Source: Borrelia coriaceae (GTDB lineage: Bacteria > Spirochaetota > Spirochaetia > Borreliales > Borreliaceae). From it: a stretch of 64,000 bases of DNA. Position 1 is the stretch's first letter, and each line of letters begins with the position of its first letter. The notes beneath the pieces are model-generated. The model made no database searches, was not told where the DNA came from, and worked only from the letters and a program-made list of their open reading frames with translations. Both the position numbers and the translations under genes were made by a program. The stretch spans positions 62,001-126,000 of the forward strand of contig NZ_CP075076.1 in assembly GCF_023035295.1 (NCBI RefSeq), in the 5' to 3' direction. Below, piece after piece: positions 3,008-62,395 of this stretch.

Positions 3008-3475
3008 ATGATAAAAGAGTTATTCACAAATAAGCTTTTCTTATCTTGTTTCACTTCAGGAATTATTGCACAAATGATTAAATACGTTATCCAAGCAATG
3101 AAAACAAGAAAACTTAAACTAAATCCAAAATACCTCTTAAAAAGCATCTTCTTAGAAACAGGAGGAATGCCTAGTAGCCACTCTTCAACAGTAACAGCTC
3201 TTGCAACATCAATACTACTAACAGAAGGAATAAATACTAACTTTATAATTGCTTTGGCCTTCGCCTTAATAACAATAAGAGATTCATTCGGTGTTAGATA
3301 CATGGCAGGAGTCCAAGCAGAATATCTAAACGCTTTGTCAGAACAACTAAAAATGAAAATCGAAATTGAACCTTTAAAAATCAAAGTAGTTAAAGGACAC
3401 AAAAAAAAAGAAGTATTTACAGGAATACTTATTGGAATAATCTCTGCATGGGCAATATGTAACCAAATAACATAA
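3008..3475 (+). CDS. DUF212 / divergent PAP2-like membrane protein (YuiD type)
   Basis: A 155-residue integral membrane protein. It carries the DUF212 signature GGMPSSHSSTVTAL near residues 52-65, a relic of the PAP2 phosphatase motif SxxxxH, followed by IRDSFGVRYMAGVQAE. Hydrophobic segments lie at about 9-30, 60-95 and 133-152. The family occurs in bacteria and plants; its biochemical activity has not been settled as far as I know, though the PSSH core suggests binding of a phosphate-bearing lipid. Its start is 17 bp after the M29 gene, with AACGAGGTAATCAA ahead of the ATG. Confidence 0.8.
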   Translation: MIKELFTNKLFLSCFTSGIIAQMIKYVIQAMKTRKLKLNPKYLLKSIFLETGGMPSSHSSTVTALATSILLTEGINTNFIIALAFALITIRDSFGVRYMAGVQAEYLNALSEQLKMKIEIEPLKIKVVKGHKKKEVFTGILIGIISAWAICNQIT

Positions 3476-3497: not shown

Positions 3498-4967
3498 ATG
3501 AAGCTACTAAAGTTTTTACATATACAGACAATATTATTGCTAATATCTTGCAACATGGCAAAATTTGGAGATTATAAACCAATATACTTTAAAAAAGAGA
3601 AAGATTTAAAAAGCGCAAATGACTACATAAACTCATTAGGATATAAAACAATATCTGAATACACAACAAAAGTAAATATATTGGACTTTCCCAATTTCAA
3701 AGAAATAACAATAAATAAAATAACCCATCTTAACGACTATGATCTTAGAAAAGATCTATTTTTAAAAAAATTGTCCAACCTCTTTAATATAGAAAATAAA
3801 AAAATACTCTACGTTGAATCAGCATTCACCAATAGCGATTTTAAAAAATTAAAGCAAAATCAAAACCTTGAAGCAGAAATGCACTCATTACACTATAAAA
3901 CTAAAATTAAATATTTTTCAAGCATGACATTCATAGCAATCATAATACTTTTATTACTCTTAAACATCAAATATGCACCCTTCATAATCCTTTTTTTAAT
4001 AAGTTCATGTACCATATTCATATTCAATGATGAGACACTCTATTTCTATCCTTTGACTATATTATCTTACCTACTATTTACATTAATTGATCATTTCAAT
4101 AAAAATTATAATAAAATGTATCTAAAAGATATTAGTTTTGCAGTATTAATTAATAAGATTAAGATTCCAATATTTCTATTTTTATTCATAGTATTATACT
4201 TTATTATAATCATTAACTTTTTAACCACCAATCTCGAATCACCTCTTATTATTTTTGTATCAATATCAACACTTTGTATTTTTTTAATATTCACTTGGAT
4301 AAAAACTGAAAGCAACTTCCAACATACATTTCTATCCTTAATTGAAATAAAAGAACAAAAACGAGAAACAAAAACTCTAAAATTTAAGATCTTCATACAT
4401 ATCATGCTGTTTATAACCTCATTAATGCCATTTTTTTATGCACAAAATATACTCAATTCCTATAAAAATTTTAATTATCTTTACAGCAAAAAATTGAACT
4501 ATTTTGACTATTTAAATCCCAATAACATCTACTTAATGGTGGGACACAATGAAGAAATTCCAAACATTGTAGGTTACATGTATCACATATTTTACCAAAA
4601 TGAACTTAAATATAAAATCACATCCGAATATGGCAAAGTAAACACAAATGTCCAAGAGGACTATTTTGAAATAGAAAACAACAAAATAACTATCAATCCA
4701 AAAACCGTATACAAAGTAAACAAAGAATTTATATCTAAAAACCTTAATAAAGAACTCTCAAGATTATTCTTATCAAATGGAAATCCAATATTAATATATA
4801 AAGAAACACCCGCTAATATTAAAATCAATAAAGATAATTTTACAATTTTATTTGCCCTTTCATTACCATTTTTTTTATTGCTATTTCTATTTAAAGCAAT
4901 AAGGTTTACAATTCTTTTAAATATGAGTGAAAAAAACTATAGAAAATATATTAGAGGAAATATCTAA
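3498..4967 (+). CDS. Unknown polytopic membrane protein with lipoprotein-like N-terminus
   Basis: I do not recognise this 489-residue protein. It begins MKLLKFLHIQTILLLISCNM, a lipoprotein-type signal with LISC as a possible lipobox (Cys18). A hydrophilic domain of about 120 residues follows, then several hydrophobic helices (about 140-275), a second short block near 300-315, a soluble region (about 325-450) and a last helix near 455-475. A lipidated N-terminus on a multi-span protein is unusual. The stop overlaps the next gene's ATG by one base (TAATG), so it is translationally linked to the Rnf-like fusion at 4967. An accessory role in that complex is inference only. Confidence 0.7.
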   Translation: MKLLKFLHIQTILLLISCNMAKFGDYKPIYFKKEKDLKSANDYINSLGYKTISEYTTKVNILDFPNFKEITINKITHLNDYDLRKDLFLKKLSNLFNIENKKILYVESAFTNSDFKKLKQNQNLEAEMHSLHYKTKIKYFSSMTFIAIIILLLLLNIKYAPFIILFLISSCTIFIFNDETLYFYPLTILSYLLFTLIDHFNKNYNKMYLKDISFAVLINKIKIPIFLFLFIVLYFIIIINFLTTNLESPLIIFVSISTLCIFLIFTWIKTESNFQHTFLSLIEIKEQKRETKTLKFKIFIHIMLFITSLMPFFYAQNILNSYKNFNYLYSKKLNYFDYLNPNNIYLMVGHNEEIPNIVGYMYHIFYQNELKYKITSEYGKVNTNVQEDYFEIENNKITINPKTVYKVNKEFISKNLNKELSRLFLSNGNPILIYKETPANIKINKDNFTILFALSLPFFLLLFLFKAIRFTILLNMSEKNYRKYIRGNI

Positions 4968-7270
4968 TGTCTAATTCAAAAACGATAAAGACAAAAAATC
5001 AGTATAAAGTAAATATAGATGAAATTCAAATACCTGAATGTGTTTTAATCCCACTAGAAACAGAAAATTCAAAGCCCACAATATACATCATTGAAAATCA
5101 AAAAATCTCAGAAGAGCAAATATTGTCAAAAGATAAAAATGTAGAGCTATACACATATGCCCCAATATCTGGAACAATAGAAAAAATATATACCGCTAAT
5201 CTTCCAAATGAACAGCAATTAAAATCAGCATTAATAAGATTCCATGGAAGAATCAAAAACGACCAAAAACCAGCTGTTGAGGAAGAATCAAGAGAAAAAA
5301 CACTAGAAAAGTTGATTCGATTAGGAATCCCATGGTTTAATGAACATTCATTATTTCAATACGTAAGTAAATGCAACAAAATAGACAAAATGCTTTTATT
5401 AATAAATGGAAAAGATCCATTTACAAATATCTCAGAAATATTGATAAAAGAAAAATTAAATGAAATCATATATGGCTTTGAAACAATCGATAAAATATTC
5501 AAATTTAAAGAAATACTAATACTACTTAGTAATCATCATTTAAAAAAAGAACTTGAAAGTTTAAATACTTTTCAAAACAAAAGATTAACAATCAAATTAA
5601 TTCCCAATACTCCATATCCATATTCAAATCACGCAATAATAATGCATTTTTTATACAATGAAGAAGGCACAAAAAATAATATAAACCCAAATAAAAATAT
5701 ACTCCTAGCTAATATTGAGGACCTTTATAATGTATATAACACGCTTAAAACAAACTCACCTTATAAAGAAAAATTTATAACCATCAATGGCAATAAAAAA
5801 ATACAAAGTCAAATAATCAAAGTCAAAATTGGAACATCTGTCCAACAAATAATAAATCAAGATATTGACACAAAAAAATATGATATATTCCTAAACAATC
5901 CAGTAAATAAGACAAAAATAAACAACCTAAATATACCTATAACAAGAGATATATACAGTATTACAATATTAAAAAAAGAATCAATATTTAGTAAAATAAA
6001 ACTCTTCAAAAAATCTAGTTTTTCACCACTATATATGGAAGAGATTATTCTCTCAAAGCTCAAGAACAAAAATAAACTTGCTAATAACCCATTAAAATAT
6101 CTACAATATACTGAAACTGAAATAGAAGATGAAATAAATAAAGTTAAAAAAGAAATAAAAGAAAAAATTTTAAATCTAAGCCTTCATAATGAACCAATAT
6201 ACACTGAAAATAATTTAAAAGATATTTATTTAACTATGATCTTAGCCTTAACACCTAGTTTAATATTTTCTTTTACAAACAACACAAAATTTTTAATTGA
6301 TACTGCAATATTAACAATTATAAGCTTGTGCTCATACCTTCCAATAATGCCAAAATCTCAATATAAATATCTCTCTTTTTTCGTATATACTCCTTTAATT
6401 ATCAGTATAATATTACCCTTAAACTTATCTATCATGCTCAAAATAACGGCGCTACTTTTTACATTTTTAATATTTTTTTATTTCTCAAAGCTTTCCAAAT
6501 TTTTTGTAAATCCCATATTAATTTCATTTGTATTTTTAATATTAAATTTTCCATTAAACTTTAAACAAGCATATTCCAAAGAACTTGCAAGACAAAAAGA
6601 TATAATTCCTACTTGGAATAAAATAATGAATCAAAATTCAGATATTCAAAATTTAGAAAGCTTAAAAGACTTTAAAAGACATGAAAACAAATATATTGAC
6701 ATGATTGAAAAATTTATCAATGACAAAATATTGTCCCATCTCAATATAATGATACCAAGATTTCACATTGAAAACCTGCTTGGGTTACAAAACGAAAAAT
6801 ACTTATCCCCCATTCTAATTTACATTGGTTTTTCATTTATACTTGGCAAATTTATTATAAATACATTAATACCGATATCTTTTTATATAAGTCTACTACT
6901 AATTGCTTATATACTAAAAATCCTTGGTCTTTACAGCTATATAAGTTTTGATATATTAAGTTTAATAATATCACCAATTCCAATGATCTTAATATTTACA
7001 ATGGGCACAGAACTGCAAATAGTTCCCCCCTTTAAGTTTGAACAAATGCTATATGGCTTTACATTATCTGTAGCATATTTTACAACATTAAGCTACATTC
7101 CACTTGAAACTTTATCAGCTGTAATATCCATTTTCATACTACAGGTAAGTTCAATATTAATAAAAAGATATAGTTTAACATTTCAGATTAAAAAAATAAT
7201 GCATCATTTAAAAACTAATAAAGCAATAGAATACAAAAATGAAAATGGAGAAGAAATTATAAAATTATGA
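4967..7270 (+). CDS. Degenerate RnfC-RnfD fusion protein, redox motifs lost
   Basis: A 767-residue fusion. Residues about 15-335 align by eye along the RnfC core: VLIPLE near 26, APISGTI at 65-71 (RnfC APxSGTV), a SREK-EK-IRLG helix, IIYGFETIDKI (RnfC VVEGIRIL), LIPNTPYPYS (RnfC VIPTKYPSG), ITINGNKKI (RnfC VTLTGEAI) and KIGTSVQQII (RnfC RLGTPVxxLL). Residues about 412-750 are membrane helices resembling RnfD, with ILALTPSLIF and FVNPILISF. In RnfC the GLGGAGFPT flavin/NADH loop and two 4Fe-4S CxxCxxC sets are essential. Here the loop reads RLGIPWFNE, and the whole protein has three scattered cysteines (25, 136, 455) with no cluster. I see no RnfD flavin-Thr motif. Rnf ancestry is strong; present function is unknown. 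Confidence 0.8.
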   Translation: MSNSKTIKTKNQYKVNIDEIQIPECVLIPLETENSKPTIYIIENQKISEEQILSKDKNVELYTYAPISGTIEKIYTANLPNEQQLKSALIRFHGRIKNDQKPAVEEESREKTLEKLIRLGIPWFNEHSLFQYVSKCNKIDKMLLLINGKDPFTNISEILIKEKLNEIIYGFETIDKIFKFKEILILLSNHHLKKELESLNTFQNKRLTIKLIPNTPYPYSNHAIIMHFLYNEEGTKNNINPNKNILLANIEDLYNVYNTLKTNSPYKEKFITINGNKKIQSQIIKVKIGTSVQQIINQDIDTKKYDIFLNNPVNKTKINNLNIPITRDIYSITILKKESIFSKIKLFKKSSFSPLYMEEIILSKLKNKNKLANNPLKYLQYTETEIEDEINKVKKEIKEKILNLSLHNEPIYTENNLKDIYLTMILALTPSLIFSFTNNTKFLIDTAILTIISLCSYLPIMPKSQYKYLSFFVYTPLIISIILPLNLSIMLKITALLFTFLIFFYFSKLSKFFVNPILISFVFLILNFPLNFKQAYSKELARQKDIIPTWNKIMNQNSDIQNLESLKDFKRHENKYIDMIEKFINDKILSHLNIMIPRFHIENLLGLQNEKYLSPILIYIGFSFILGKFIINTLIPISFYISLLLIAYILKILGLYSYISFDILSLIISPIPMILIFTMGTELQIVPPFKFEQMLYGFTLSVAYFTTLSYIPLETLSAVISIFILQVSSILIKRYSLTFQIKKIMHHLKTNKAIEYKNENGEEIIKL

Positions 7271-7836
7271 ACAATAATCTAGTAACCTATTTAATAATAA
7301 ATAACCTATTACTAATACACTTTATAGGAATTGAAGATATAAAAGTAAAAAATAATAAGACATTGTCAAAAAAGTATTTAATTATCATAATAACTGCTCT
7401 ATTTACTTATTCAAGTCTTTTCCATATTTATAAATTATTATCAGAATATAACTTATTACTTATAATACCAATGATATATATAATATTAATATATACACTA
7501 ACGATCATACTAAAAACATTAAATAATATCTTAATTGCTTACAACAACAAATCAAAATATTCAAACGATTTTGTACTATCCAATAGTAGCTTTACTGCAA
7601 TAATATTTTTTTCTCTAGATAAAAATCATAACTTTCTAGAAGGCATTACAACGCTTATTCTATCTTCACTTAGTATCTTAATATCCCTCATATTAATAAA
7701 ATTAATCAAGAAAAACTTTGAAACAAAACTAACATCAAAAATCTTAGTCAATGAAACAATGGATTTTTTTATAATGTTCATTTTATCTTTAATTCCAAAT
7801 ATAATTATACTAATAAATAATATCGAGGGTTCATAA
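7267..7836 (+). CDS. RnfA/RnfE-like membrane protein lacking the conserved cysteines
   Basis: A 189-residue protein of about six hydrophobic helices. It starts like RnfA: an NN-x-LL-xx-FIGI stretch matches RnfA VNNFVLVKFLG, and later SNSSFTAI followed by NHNFLEG and a helix ending LIKKNFE matches RnfA TNCAVLG, NFLxxxLYG and IRERL. RnfA uses one cysteine in each of these half-motifs (FLGxCPF and TNCAV) to hold an iron-sulfur cluster at the membrane centre. Here they are replaced by Glu/Asp and Ser, and the protein contains no cysteine at all. It overlaps the fusion gene by 4 bp and shares a base with the prfB start, so it is tightly coupled in the same transcript. No RnfB, G or second A/E gene is nearby. 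Confidence 0.72.
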   Translation: MNNNLVTYLIINNLLLIHFIGIEDIKVKNNKTLSKKYLIIIITALFTYSSLFHIYKLLSEYNLLLIIPMIYIILIYTLTIILKTLNNILIAYNNKSKYSNDFVLSNSSFTAIIFFSLDKNHNFLEGITTLILSSLSILISLILIKLIKKNFETKLTSKILVNETMDFFIMFILSLIPNIIILINNIEGS

Positions 7837-8913
7837 TGAGAGAAAAAATAAACGAACTTTTAGAACAAATTGAAAATGTCTGGAGGAAGCTTTGACAGTG
7901 ATAAAATCAAAGCTCAACTTAAAGAATACGAAAAACAAATAAATGACAACAATTTCTGGAATGATAATAAAAAAGCACAAGAGATTCTTCAAAATCACAA
8001 TATTTTAAAAGACAAAATTGAACCTTGGGAAAACTTGATATCCAAACTACAAGACTTAAGAGAACTATACGAAATTGCAGAAAGCGAAAAAGACATAGCA
8101 TTAATCGACAACGATATTAATAAACTAAAAGAACAGTATAAACATCTCTTAACATTATCTTATTTTAAAGAAGATATTGATATATACAGTGCATTTTTGA
8201 CAATACACTCAGGAGCAGGTGGAACAGAAGCTTGTGATTGGGTTAACATGTTATACAGAATATATCTAAGATACTCTGAGAGACGTGGATACAAAACAGA
8301 ACTTATAGACTTACTTGAAGCTGAAGGTGGCATTAAATCTGTGACAATTGAAATAAAAGGAGAATATGCTTATGGACTTTTAAAAAGTGAAATAGGAATA
8401 CATCGTCTTGTAAGAATCTCTCCTTTTGACGCTGCAAAAAAAAGACATACATCTTTTGCATCTGTTTTTATTGATCCTGTAATTGATGATAAAATTGAAA
8501 TCATAATTAAACCAGAAGATATTAGAATTGACACATATAGAGCATCAGGAGCAGGTGGACAACATGTTAATAAAACATCATCAGCTGTCAGAATTACTCA
8601 CCTTCAGACGGGCATAGTAACTCAATCTCAAACCGACAGAAGCCAACATAGAAATAAAGAATTAGCAATGAAAGTATTAAAATCAAAACTTTATAAATAC
8701 TACAAAGCACTAGAGCAACAAAAAAATAAATCTAAACAAGAGGAGAAAAAAGATATATCTTGGGGCAATCAAATAAGATCTTATATCTTCCAACCTTATA
8801 CTTTAGTAAAAGATCACAGAACAAAATTTGAAAATCCAAATATTATCTCTGTTATGGATGGGAACATCGATAACTTCATAGAAGAATATCTCAAATGGAA
8901 AAATTTAAGTTAA
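7836..8913 (+). CDS. prfB: Peptide chain release factor 2 (programmed +1 frameshift)
   Basis: RF2 reads UGA and UAA stops and triggers peptide release. Translation starts at ATG7836, runs 19 codons to CTT (7890-7892), meets an in-frame TGA (7893-7895) and continues in the +1 frame from GAC7894, giving about 358 residues. The second frame contains the stop-codon-reading tripeptide SPF (about 195-197) in VRISPFDAA and the catalytic GGQ (about 240-242) in SGAGGQHVNKTSSAVR. The first zero-frame peptide, MREKINELLEQIENVWRKL, matches RF2 N-termini, which shows the shift is genuine and not damage. The start shares an A with the preceding stop, and the 3' end overlaps the next gene by 19 bp. Confidence 0.95.
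7881..7896 (+). other. prfB programmed +1 frameshift site
   Basis: The sequence TGGAGGAAGCTTTGAC holds an internal Shine-Dalgarno-like GGAGG, a three-base spacer, the slippery codon CTT and the stop TGA followed by C. This is the same layout as the E. coli prfB site. RF2 shortage pauses the ribosome on the poorly terminating UGA-C and favours slippage to TTT, so RF2 controls its own level. Confidence 0.95.
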
Positions 8914-60741: not shown

Positions 60742-62395
60742 CGGAATTCCTCTTTAACAGACTTGCAAACGGCTTATAAGATTCTTCATCATCTTCTTTA
60801 AACAAATAAGAAGAAATCTCTTCGCTTGATTTTTGATCCTTATATGCCCTGTAAGAAAGCAAAACCAACTTATTTTTAAAGTCAATATTGGTAATTATAA
60901 CCTTAAGCTTGTCTCCAACGTTCAAATTCTCAAAAGTTTCCAAACTGGACTCTTTTGTATCTCCAAGTTGAATTTTACTAATAAATCCCATTATCCTACC
61001 ATAAACTCTCACCTGAAGTCCTTTTGATTTTTTCTCTACAATTTCAACTTCAAGAGTATCACCTTTTTTATAACTCTTAGAAAAATCATCCCAAGGATTT
61101 TCTTCTAACTGTTTAATTCCTAACCTAATATTTTGCCTCTTTGCATCAAACTCAATCACTTTCCCACTAATTGAACTTCCTAATTCAAAGTATTCCTCAG
61201 GATTAACTTCATCAACCCAAGAAATATCAAATTTACTAATATATGCATCTATGCCTTCTTCAATGCTCACAAAAGCACCAGTTCTTGTAATATTTTTAAC
61301 AACACCTTGCACAACCGTACCTACAGAACATCTTTGAGCCAAATTGGTCCATGGATTCCCATTAACTTGCTTAATACCTAAAGATATTTTTTGACTTTCT
61401 TTGTCTATCTCCAAAATCTTAACTTCTACGATTTGACCAACCTTAACTAATTCTTGAGGACTTTTTATAACCCTTACCCAAGAAAAATTACTTATATGAA
61501 GAAACCCTGATATCTCACTATCAAGCTCAACCACAGCACCAAAGGGTAATATTTTAACAATTTTGCCCTTTACAATACTGTCAACTTTATACCTCGACTC
61601 AACAGAATCCCAAGGATTTGCCTTTAAAGCTTTAAGAGATAACTCCATTTTTACCGCATCTACATTTAACTTTATGACTTTCAATCTTAACTTATCACCA
61701 ACACGAATAAAATCTTCAATACTCTCAACACGATTAAATGCAATATTCCTTTTATGCAATATACCTACAACAAGATTTTTAATCTTTATAATAGCACTAT
61801 AATCTGTAATTCTCTCAACAACACCATCAACTATATCTCCCTCGCTATAAGAACTAACAAGTTCTTTTTTCTTTAAAAACTCTCTCTCACGCTCTAAAGT
61901 TTTTCTATCAAGAATAAGTCTAAGACCATCGGTTTTATCTGCCTGAACAATATAAAACTCAACTATTGAGCCTCTTTTCAATTTCTCATCCCTAAATTTA
62001 GAGCTCAAATAAAACGGCATGAACCCGGTAACATTTTCATTAATTTGGACTTTATAGCCACTTGAAAGTTCAACTAAAACCTTGCCTTTAAGCACCTTTT
62101 TATTTGCAATATATTCATCAATTTTATCTTGCAGATTAAGAGAATCAAGCTTTGCAACACTAAGAACTAATCCCAATTCTCCGCCTACTTTTGTAACTAT
62201 TGCATCAATTTTATCTCCAATATTTGGAATGGTTTCAAATTCATCGCCTTTAATAAAACCTTCAGATTTATAACCAATATCTACAAGCACATAATCTTTC
62301 ATGATATTTACAACAACACCAGAAACACTACTACCAAGCTCTACTTTTTCAAGAACCTTTAGATAATTTTCTTGCAAATCTTCTTGATTTTCCAT
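60734..62395 (-). CDS. rpsA: 30S ribosomal protein S1 (RpsA homologue)
   Basis: 553 residues made of six S1 (OB-fold) repeats starting at about 20, 98, 188, 272, 358 and 445; typical units read VEVKILEIDKESQKISLGIKQVNGNPW and GSSISGKVIEFDAKRQNIRLGIKQLEENPW. S1 holds mRNA on the 30S subunit for initiation. ATG62395 follows AGAGG; GTG62401 is the longer alternative. It is 13 bp after cmk, the classic cmk-rpsA pair. Confidence 0.93.
   Translation of the reverse strand: MENQEDLQENYLKVLEKVELGSSVSGVVVNIMKDYVLVDIGYKSEGFIKGDEFETIPNIGDKIDAIVTKVGGELGLVLSVAKLDSLNLQDKIDEYIANKKVLKGKVLVELSSGYKVQINENVTGFMPFYLSSKFRDEKLKRGSIVEFYIVQADKTDGLRLILDRKTLEREREFLKKKELVSSYSEGDIVDGVVERITDYSAIIKIKNLVVGILHKRNIAFNRVESIEDFIRVGDKLRLKVIKLNVDAVKMELSLKALKANPWDSVESRYKVDSIVKGKIVKILPFGAVVELDSEISGFLHISNFSWVRVIKSPQELVKVGQIVEVKILEIDKESQKISLGIKQVNGNPWTNLAQRCSVGTVVQGVVKNITRTGAFVSIEEGIDAYISKFDISWVDEVNPEEYFELGSSISGKVIEFDAKRQNIRLGIKQLEENPWDDFSKSYKKGDTLEVEIVEKKSKGLQVRVYGRIMGFISKIQLGDTKESSLETFENLNVGDKLKVIITNIDFKNKLVLLSYRAYKDQKSSEEISSYLFKEDDEESYKPFASLLKRNSDV

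Follow-up and report, generated by a model that had tools for sequence, protein, structure and literature searches.

Rnf and Nqr are textbook electron-driven ion pumps, and a locus on the chromosome of Borrelia coriaceae raises the question of what such a pump may become once its electron-carrying sites are gone. In the 64,000-nucleotide stretch analyzed here (positions 62,001 to 126,000 of contig NZ_CP075076.1, assembly GCF_023035295.1; hereafter the window), a DUF212 gene, the gene of a membrane protein that we call X, the genes of a 767- and a 189-residue protein, and prfB stand in a row, all on the forward strand. An earlier note, made from the DNA alone, had read the 767-residue protein as an RnfC core running on into an RnfD-like membrane half and the next gene as rnfA, and had proposed an Rnf-type complex stripped of all its redox centers and reused for a non-redox task. 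From the sequence comparisons below, we are nearly certain of the homology to Rnf and of the loss of its ligands. The homology as such is already known from annotation: public records label many copies of the fusion "RnfABCDGE type electron transport complex subunit D", and one RnfA copy carries the name "Electron transporter RnfA". What the present comparison adds is the loss of the ligands and its context; a literature search with most subscription papers outside its scope returned no title or abstract on a stripped spirochaetal Rnf.

Rnf subunits within and beyond the window

The 767-residue protein is an RnfC–RnfD fusion, as the earlier note had it. In hmmscan, it matches RnfC_N, Complex1_51K, and NQR2_RnfD_RnfE in that order; within the RnfC half, PF13375 lies barely above and PF01512 under its cut-off, and TIGR01945 gives an E-value of 1.1e-24 (86.8 bits, under the curated cut-off of 245.95), a stronger match than that of the NqrA model (1e-10). 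The RnfD half matches PF03116 at 1.3e-9 (38.3 bits vs. a cut-off of 27.7). A 20-row Borreliaceae profile recovers the RnfC chain 7zc6_C (E 6e-12) and, in whole-sequence values, the RnfD chains 9eri_D (E 0.0026) and 7zc6_D (E 0.008), the 9eri_D match consisting of two colinear stretches that are weak individually. A protein search returned 44 matches, of which 39 are Borrelia-type (some partial or unnamed) and five are other RnfC-type proteins.

The 189-residue product of the following gene matches nothing in Pfam or NCBIfam, and its reading as RnfA is confirmed by its modelled fold, which matches RnfA, and by profile–profile comparison: the profile of window-type RnfA reaches 94% with divergent spirochaetal RnfA and 62% with canonical RnfA, all controls (RnfE, ten other profiles, and reversed RnfA) staying below 2%. 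The window copy is free of cysteine, as had been claimed, and 13 of the 30 Borreliaceae copies hold a single cysteine, never in a ligand column.

The earlier list of parts proved incomplete, for RnfE is present but unlinked. Its gene is a 194-residue open reading frame outside the window (L003 1222-1806, minus strand; about G000:C1 621992-622576), some 0.55 Mb from the C–D/A locus and flanked, by eye, by a chemotaxis-receptor-like gene on one side and an argS-like gene on the other; it is probably BB0595. It was located through a weak PF02508 match in its own genome (E 0.058). Compared with canonical RnfE, the single sequence gives 91% and a profile of it with 15 others 95.9% (E 6.3e-9); with canonical RnfA the profile reaches just 1.9%, with reversed canonical RnfE 0.1%, and with divergent RnfE only 29%. 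The gene is present in 21 of 21 genomes (its own and 20 of the 35 other Borreliaceae, five cases needing a second stretch). Aligned identity for A and E is only 13–22%. RnfA carries its positive charges in loops 1-2, 3-4, and 5-6, whereas those of RnfE lie at the two termini and in loops 2-3 and 4-5, except that the long loop 5-6 of RnfE is positive too; these largely opposite patterns imply mostly opposite orientations, as RnfA and RnfE should show.

Two other readings were discarded. That RnfE had been lost was our initial view of two PF02508 matches (0.046 and 0.058), rejected when the 0.058 match in L003 proved to be RnfE; a chance alignment of RnfA or RnfE was rejected by the reversed and unrelated profile controls. 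As a side observation, another reduced Rnf occurs in family f7 (L082 and L083, genomes G032 and G006), with a weak RnfD and an RnfB of 20–21 cysteines; the open reading frames at its A and E positions hold 2 or 0 cysteines and are unrecognized by the A/E profiles, giving no match with the Borreliaceae RnfA/RnfE profiles (0.3%) and failing against canonical A/E as well (1–2%).

Lost ligands, retained residues, and selection

We counted cofactor ligands in aligned columns of 12 canonical and 19 divergent spirochaetal clusters and of 30 Borreliaceae sequences; because L085 and L129 are nearly the same, the divergent rows do not amount to 19 independent observations. Omitted were L081, L086, and L088 (same places as L137, L138, and L141), L082 and L083 (A/E unrecognized by profiles), L126 (no Rnf genes), L139 (a contig without Rnf), and L146 (truncated C). 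The eight cysteine columns of the RnfC [4Fe-4S] clusters are filled in 12/12 canonical, 19/19 divergent, and 0/30 Borreliaceae sequences. The glycines of the RnfC flavin mononucleotide (FMN) loop are kept in 11/12, 0–1/19, and 0/30, respectively, the motif RLGIPWFNE occupying the place of this glycine-rich loop in the merged alignment; both losses had been seen by the earlier note in the single copy of the window. The [2Fe-2S] cysteine pair of RnfA is found in 12/12 canonical clusters, 0/19 divergent ones, and 0/30 Borreliaceae, and the two RnfE cysteine columns in 12/12 and 12/12, 2/19 and 0/19, and 0/21 and 0/21. The flavin-bearing threonine of RnfD stands in 11/12 canonical and 1/19 divergent sequences and is replaced by proline in all 30 Borreliaceae, a loss that depends on gap placement because an invariant threonine (IIPTW, 30/30) sits one residue downstream; its SGAT-like context is gone in Borreliaceae. 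The RnfG threonine is held by 11/12 canonical and 0/16 divergent proteins.

As for missing subunits, none of the 36 Borreliaceae genomes gives a match at E <= 0.01 to the FMN_bind domain of RnfG/NqrC (PF04205), the iron–sulfur domain of RnfB (PF04060), or the ApbE domain, whereas control genomes do. This agrees with the claimed absence of RnfB and RnfG, with the proviso that an RnfG with its motif lost could escape domain searches; an alignment search of the B. coriaceae genome for a G-like gene, run without a positive control, gave no match. By known Rnf biochemistry, the loss of these sites implies no ferredoxin:NAD+ oxidoreduction, and we hold it highly likely that the complex is unable to run this electron transfer. 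The wording "all redox centers" goes too far, however: the iron, covalent-flavin, and FMN sites are gone, but part of the RnfD riboflavin pocket survives.

According to a study of the Acetobacterium woodii Rnf (PMC11889175), the RnfA/RnfE pair is the Na+ path, Na+ is held in simulations by the Thr111 backbone and the Asn112 side chain of RnfA, Arg67 of RnfE is ion-paired with Glu115, and Asn123 and Asp249 of RnfD contact riboflavin. Residues were numbered after this complex by offset, RnfD being also aligned directly to 9eri_D. In Borreliaceae RnfA, Asn112 is kept in 28/30, the Thr111 column is Ser in 30/30, Cys113 is mostly Ser (Cys in 0/30), Arg154 has become Lys in 30/30, and residue 158 is acidic in 30/30. 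All 21 RnfE sequences keep Leu22, Glu115, a Phe two residues on, and an Arg-Glu...Gly motif. In RnfD, Asn123, Pro124, and Thr248 are invariant and Asp249 is Glu throughout (each 30/30).

The genes themselves are maintained. The C–D frame is full-length in 36/36 Borreliaceae genomes (in three, the stop was counted at the match end), the A frame is open in 30/30, and one X gene of 30 reads as 361 residues against 461–490. Ratios of nonsynonymous to synonymous substitution rates (dN/dS), taken from pairs with 0.05<dS<1, have medians of 0.159 for C–D (191/435 pairs), 0.191 for A (199/435 pairs; range 0.095–0.632), 0.144 for X (148/435 pairs), and 0.171 for E (106/210 pairs). These values, close to the 0.137 of the argS control (75 pairs from 19 sequences), indicate functional constraint rather than decay. 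The earlier note had argued for selection from intact, overlapping frames, an argument that this comparison across Borrelia sustains (X and the fusion gene overlap by 1 base, the fusion gene and rnfA by 4 bases); it had also allowed that homologs with conserved ligands might reveal a decaying copy, whereas the ligand loss is common to all 30 sequences. Simple decay was rejected on dN/dS and conservation.

Features of the Rnf-derived locus, in positions of the window
Feature	Position	Strand	Basis
DUF212 (divergent PAP2) gene, first of the conserved spirochaetal cluster DUF212–X–rnfC	3008..3475	+	open reading frame; named by eye from position and shared GGMPSSHS motif
X, 489-residue membrane protein with lipobox-like N-terminus (LLISC), Rnf-operon partner	3498..4967	+	
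767-residue RnfC–RnfD fusion	4967..7270	+	open frame
RnfC-like half, residues 1-392: barrel-sandwich and Complex1_51K-like regions, without FMN loop or [4Fe-4S] cysteines	4967..6142	+	
RLGIPWFNE, site of the lost glycine-rich FMN loop (approximate)	5318..5344	+	merged alignment
RnfD-like membrane half, residues 393-767	6143..7267	+	
Asn515-Pro516, equivalent to A. woodii RnfD Asn123-Pro124, invariant	6509..6514	+	HMM alignment to 9eri_D
Thr681-Glu682, equivalent to RnfD Thr248-Asp249, invariant as Thr-Glu	7007..7012	+	9eri_D alignment (in a stretch weak by itself) and merged alignments
RnfA homolog, 189 residues, no Cys, N-out/C-out charge pattern	7267..7836	+	open reading frame
Ser105-Asn106-Ser107, equivalent to RnfA Thr111-Asn112-Cys113, Asn retained, Cys to Ser	7579..7587	+	
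prfB, downstream neighbor, outside the complex	7870..8913	+	open reading frame named by eye

Protein X and the half-stripped treponemal clusters

The other part missing from the earlier list is X. Borrelia X matches treponemal X in hhalign (89.6%, E 1.9e-6 over 370 columns; reversed control 0.3%), and treponemal X matches the X beside the canonical Rnf of L093 at 98%, to which Borrelia X itself gives 10% only. The X profile matches 124 of 198 Spirochaetia genomes. Outside Borreliaceae, among the RnfD matches listed for 102 of the 103 genomes with X, at least 56 X places have RnfD no more than 5 kb away in the same orientation, X being upstream in all 56. Six cases without such colocation were read (L125-L130): five have C–D near DUF212, with X recognized by profile in three of them, and one (L126) does not. 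Full clusters of other spirochaetes (L133, L135, L136) run DUF212–X–C–D–G–E–A–B–GH57, and the gene at the DUF212 place in L085 is PF02681 (E 2.6e-40). From its place upstream of RnfD across spirochaetes and from the match between Borrelia and treponemal X, X is by all appearances an old Rnf companion, found beside fully canonical subunits too.

Some variants were also seen. A canonical Rnf cluster without X (L092) has a prfB-like open reading frame after GH57, by eye; L126 (5289-9407, genome G027) reads DUF212–X–GH57 with no adjoining Rnf genes, the RnfD match of that genome lying elsewhere; X is shortened to 262–431 residues in some Borrelia records (P0071-P0075), through truncations or sequencing errors; and RnfC is split over two open reading frames in the otherwise canonical cluster L132 (7563-8893), possibly by a frameshift or an assembly error.

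Treponemes and some other families carry, at the equivalent DUF212–X place, the divergent Rnf cluster counted above, in the order DUF212–X–C–D–(G)–E–A; X is unrecognized by profile in L079, L125, and L127. Like the Borrelia locus, nearly all of the 19 have lost the FMN loop, the flavin-bearing threonine of D, and the A/E cysteines; unlike it, they keep the eight RnfC cysteines and mostly a recognized G-like gene (16/19), sometimes also a B-like gene, and they have largely lost what Borreliaceae keep as Glu and Asn (RnfD Asp249 is D in only 4/19, RnfA Asn112 in 0/19). Two of these clusters belong to Treponema berlinense (L137) and T. bryantii (L142); the treponemal half-stripped cluster was seen in L080, L085, L128, L129, L137, L138, L140-L145, and L147. 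Short RnfB-like proteins of 200–215 residues with 16 cysteines accompany L086 (3231-3878), L088 (3258-3872), and L128 (2206-2808) and are unrecognized in other treponemal clusters. In genomes G024, G100, and G111, the half-stripped cluster coexists with a second, canonical Rnf (and G137 holds a second RnfD match, 2.5e-101), which argues against viewing it there as just a pump in the process of being lost.

We take genome G077 to be probably T. pallidum. Its cluster (L079 4287-8446), the sole PF03116 match of the genome, has a C with two CxxCxxC sets and without FMN loop, and D, G, E, and A without flavin-bearing threonine or cysteine ligands; the flavin motif is missing from its G-like gene, two FMN_bind matches being located elsewhere, and neither X nor RnfB was recognized beside it. 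PMC7512555 proposes an atypical flavin-dependent RNF for T. pallidum; judging from these residues, this cluster may not be the flavin-driven pump proposed.

As to origin, the Borreliaceae branch has a length of 3.06 in a C+D tree, and a tree constrained to keep the 19 divergent rows as one group is not rejected (p-AU 0.33). RnfA Asn112 and RnfD Thr248 are kept in Borreliaceae and lost in most treponemes; these residue patterns lean towards independent loss in the two groups.

Proposed electron-independent transport and its rivals

The locus would encode most of an inner-membrane complex derived from an Rnf pump, namely X, C–D, and A, together with the unlinked E. We tentatively favor, at somewhat less than even confidence, an Rnf-derived complex that is unable to run ferredoxin:NAD+ chemistry and serves as a membrane translocator independent of electrons. 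RnfA and RnfE, an alternating-access Na+ path in A. woodii, would still form an inverted pair and move Na+, H+, or a small solute without electrons; a ligand, riboflavin or some other, may sit in the surviving pocket of RnfD, the RnfC-like part would be a cytosolic lid or regulator, and X an envelope-side partner. Besides the homology, ligand loss, missing domains, constraint, charge patterns, and retained residues described above, this reading draws on the operon partner X, probably BB0071 of B. burgdorferi: insertion mutants in bb0071 were recovered from the input library in culture and missing from larval ticks in either experiment (PMC6516651 Table 2). Of the reuse proposed in the earlier note, the intact, selected complex without Rnf electron transfer stands, and ion or metabolite movement keeps a partial basis in the RnfA/E residues. 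The fuller picture of a "de-electrified" Rnf, in which the A/E module has turned into an electron-independent ion or solute transporter, the riboflavin pocket of RnfD is reused, and the spirochaetal operon is partway there in treponemes, probably including T. pallidum, seems doubtful to us.

Several points weigh against translocation. Transport, ligand binding, and complex formation are predictions from sequence. RnfE Arg67 is replaced by Ile and Asn107 is gone in 21/21, which means that Na+ specifically may not be carried, and the gate residues have changed (RnfA Leu108 to Phe in 30/30, RnfE Leu103 to Ile in 21/21). Few canonical-conserved columns are retained in Borreliaceae (A 5/56, E 8/61, D 22/86, C 13/98), those of A and E so few that the residues cited above could be chance survivors. 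The surviving riboflavin contacts may leave some redox use of D. The equation of X with BB0071 rests on gene numbering and a "lipoprotein" label, and the bb0071 insertions may act via downstream genes; the same literature search returned no paper naming BB0072, BB0073, or BB0595. In the A. woodii study, RnfE Arg67 to Ala abolished autotrophic growth and E115K all growth, E115Q grew poorly, and E115A grew like the wild type (PMC11889175); this last result weakens one retained residue and lowers our confidence in the whole explanation.

The main rival, possible in our view though not probable, dispenses with transport: the Rnf-derived subunits would merely anchor and position X, which would have an envelope or periplasmic function, on a structural or regulatory platform. 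X adjoins rnfC in normal and stripped clusters alike and lies upstream of RnfD in all 56 places counted, L126 keeps X between DUF212 and GH57 without Rnf neighbors, and the sole phenotype found, from transposon-insertion sequencing in ticks, concerns X. However, it would be surprising for a mere anchor that C, D, A, and the unlinked E are all constrained about as closely as argS and that the D pocket keeps an invariant Asn and Glu. These same two residues suggest a residual redox device, in which RnfD would bind riboflavin and the complex shuttle electrons or sense redox state with a single flavin, the invariant threonine beside the flavin-Thr column offering a possible shifted attachment site. 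We consider this improbable, given that the SGAT-like context is lost, that ApbE, FMN_bind, and RnfB-type domains were found in none of the 36 genomes, and that, with no A/E ligands, RnfC clusters, or FMN loop, a flavin in D would have no electron partner by a known route on either side.

A functionless remnant of a lost pump would account for the vanished iron and attached-flavin sites, the two subunits not found, the one short X, and dN/dS values of A of up to 0.63 in single pairs; we regard it as very improbable, in view of the open frames, the medians close to argS, and the half-stripped versions maintained in treponemes alongside an ordinary Rnf. That these are membrane-protein look-alikes aligned through composition is hardly credible, even with A and E lacking Pfam matches above cut-off at so low an identity and 3/21 Borreliaceae lacking a PF03116 match at 0.001, given the HMMER matches of C and D, the correct A-to-A and E-to-E pairing, the clean reversed and non-homologous controls, the fold match, and the synteny.

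Coming back to an Rnf-derived complex without electron chemistry, its likeness to Rnf (A. woodii 9eri, Clostridium tetanomorphum 7zc6) lies in homologous C, D, A, and E, in the adjacency of C and D (fused in Borrelia), in the largely opposite A/E charges, in the spirochaetal operon context, and in RnfD Asn123, an acidic residue 249, and part of the A/E Na+ path. It differs from Rnf in lacking detected RnfB, RnfG, and ApbE and the [4Fe-4S], [2Fe-2S], FMN-loop, and SGAT-type flavin motifs, and thereby fails the defining tests of a functional Rnf, while being well supported as an Rnf-derived, conserved, cofactor-poor membrane complex. Mrp antiporters, in which membrane subunits like those of the redox pump complex I transport ions with no electron chemistry, are an analogy only, their proteins being unrelated to Rnf. 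In Na+-NQR, NqrB, NqrD, and NqrE are homologous to RnfD, RnfE, and RnfA, and the complex apart from NqrA keeps flavins and iron, whereas Borrelia retains nothing of the known chain except riboflavin contacts and has no detected NqrC-type flavoprotein subunit (PF04205, 0/36 genomes). A review (PMC12174285) gives NqrA itself as an earlier case of an RnfC-type fold that holds no redox cofactors.

If the proposed reading is true, a complex retained under selection in both sampled Borreliaceae genera would mean that this membrane machinery is useful without electrons, and its ion-path residues could be studied separately from redox coupling. Four uncharacterized conserved Borrelia genes, one of them probably with a tick-survival phenotype, would gain a candidate function, and the assumption that the rnf-like genes of pathogenic treponemes encode a working energy pump would be called into question.

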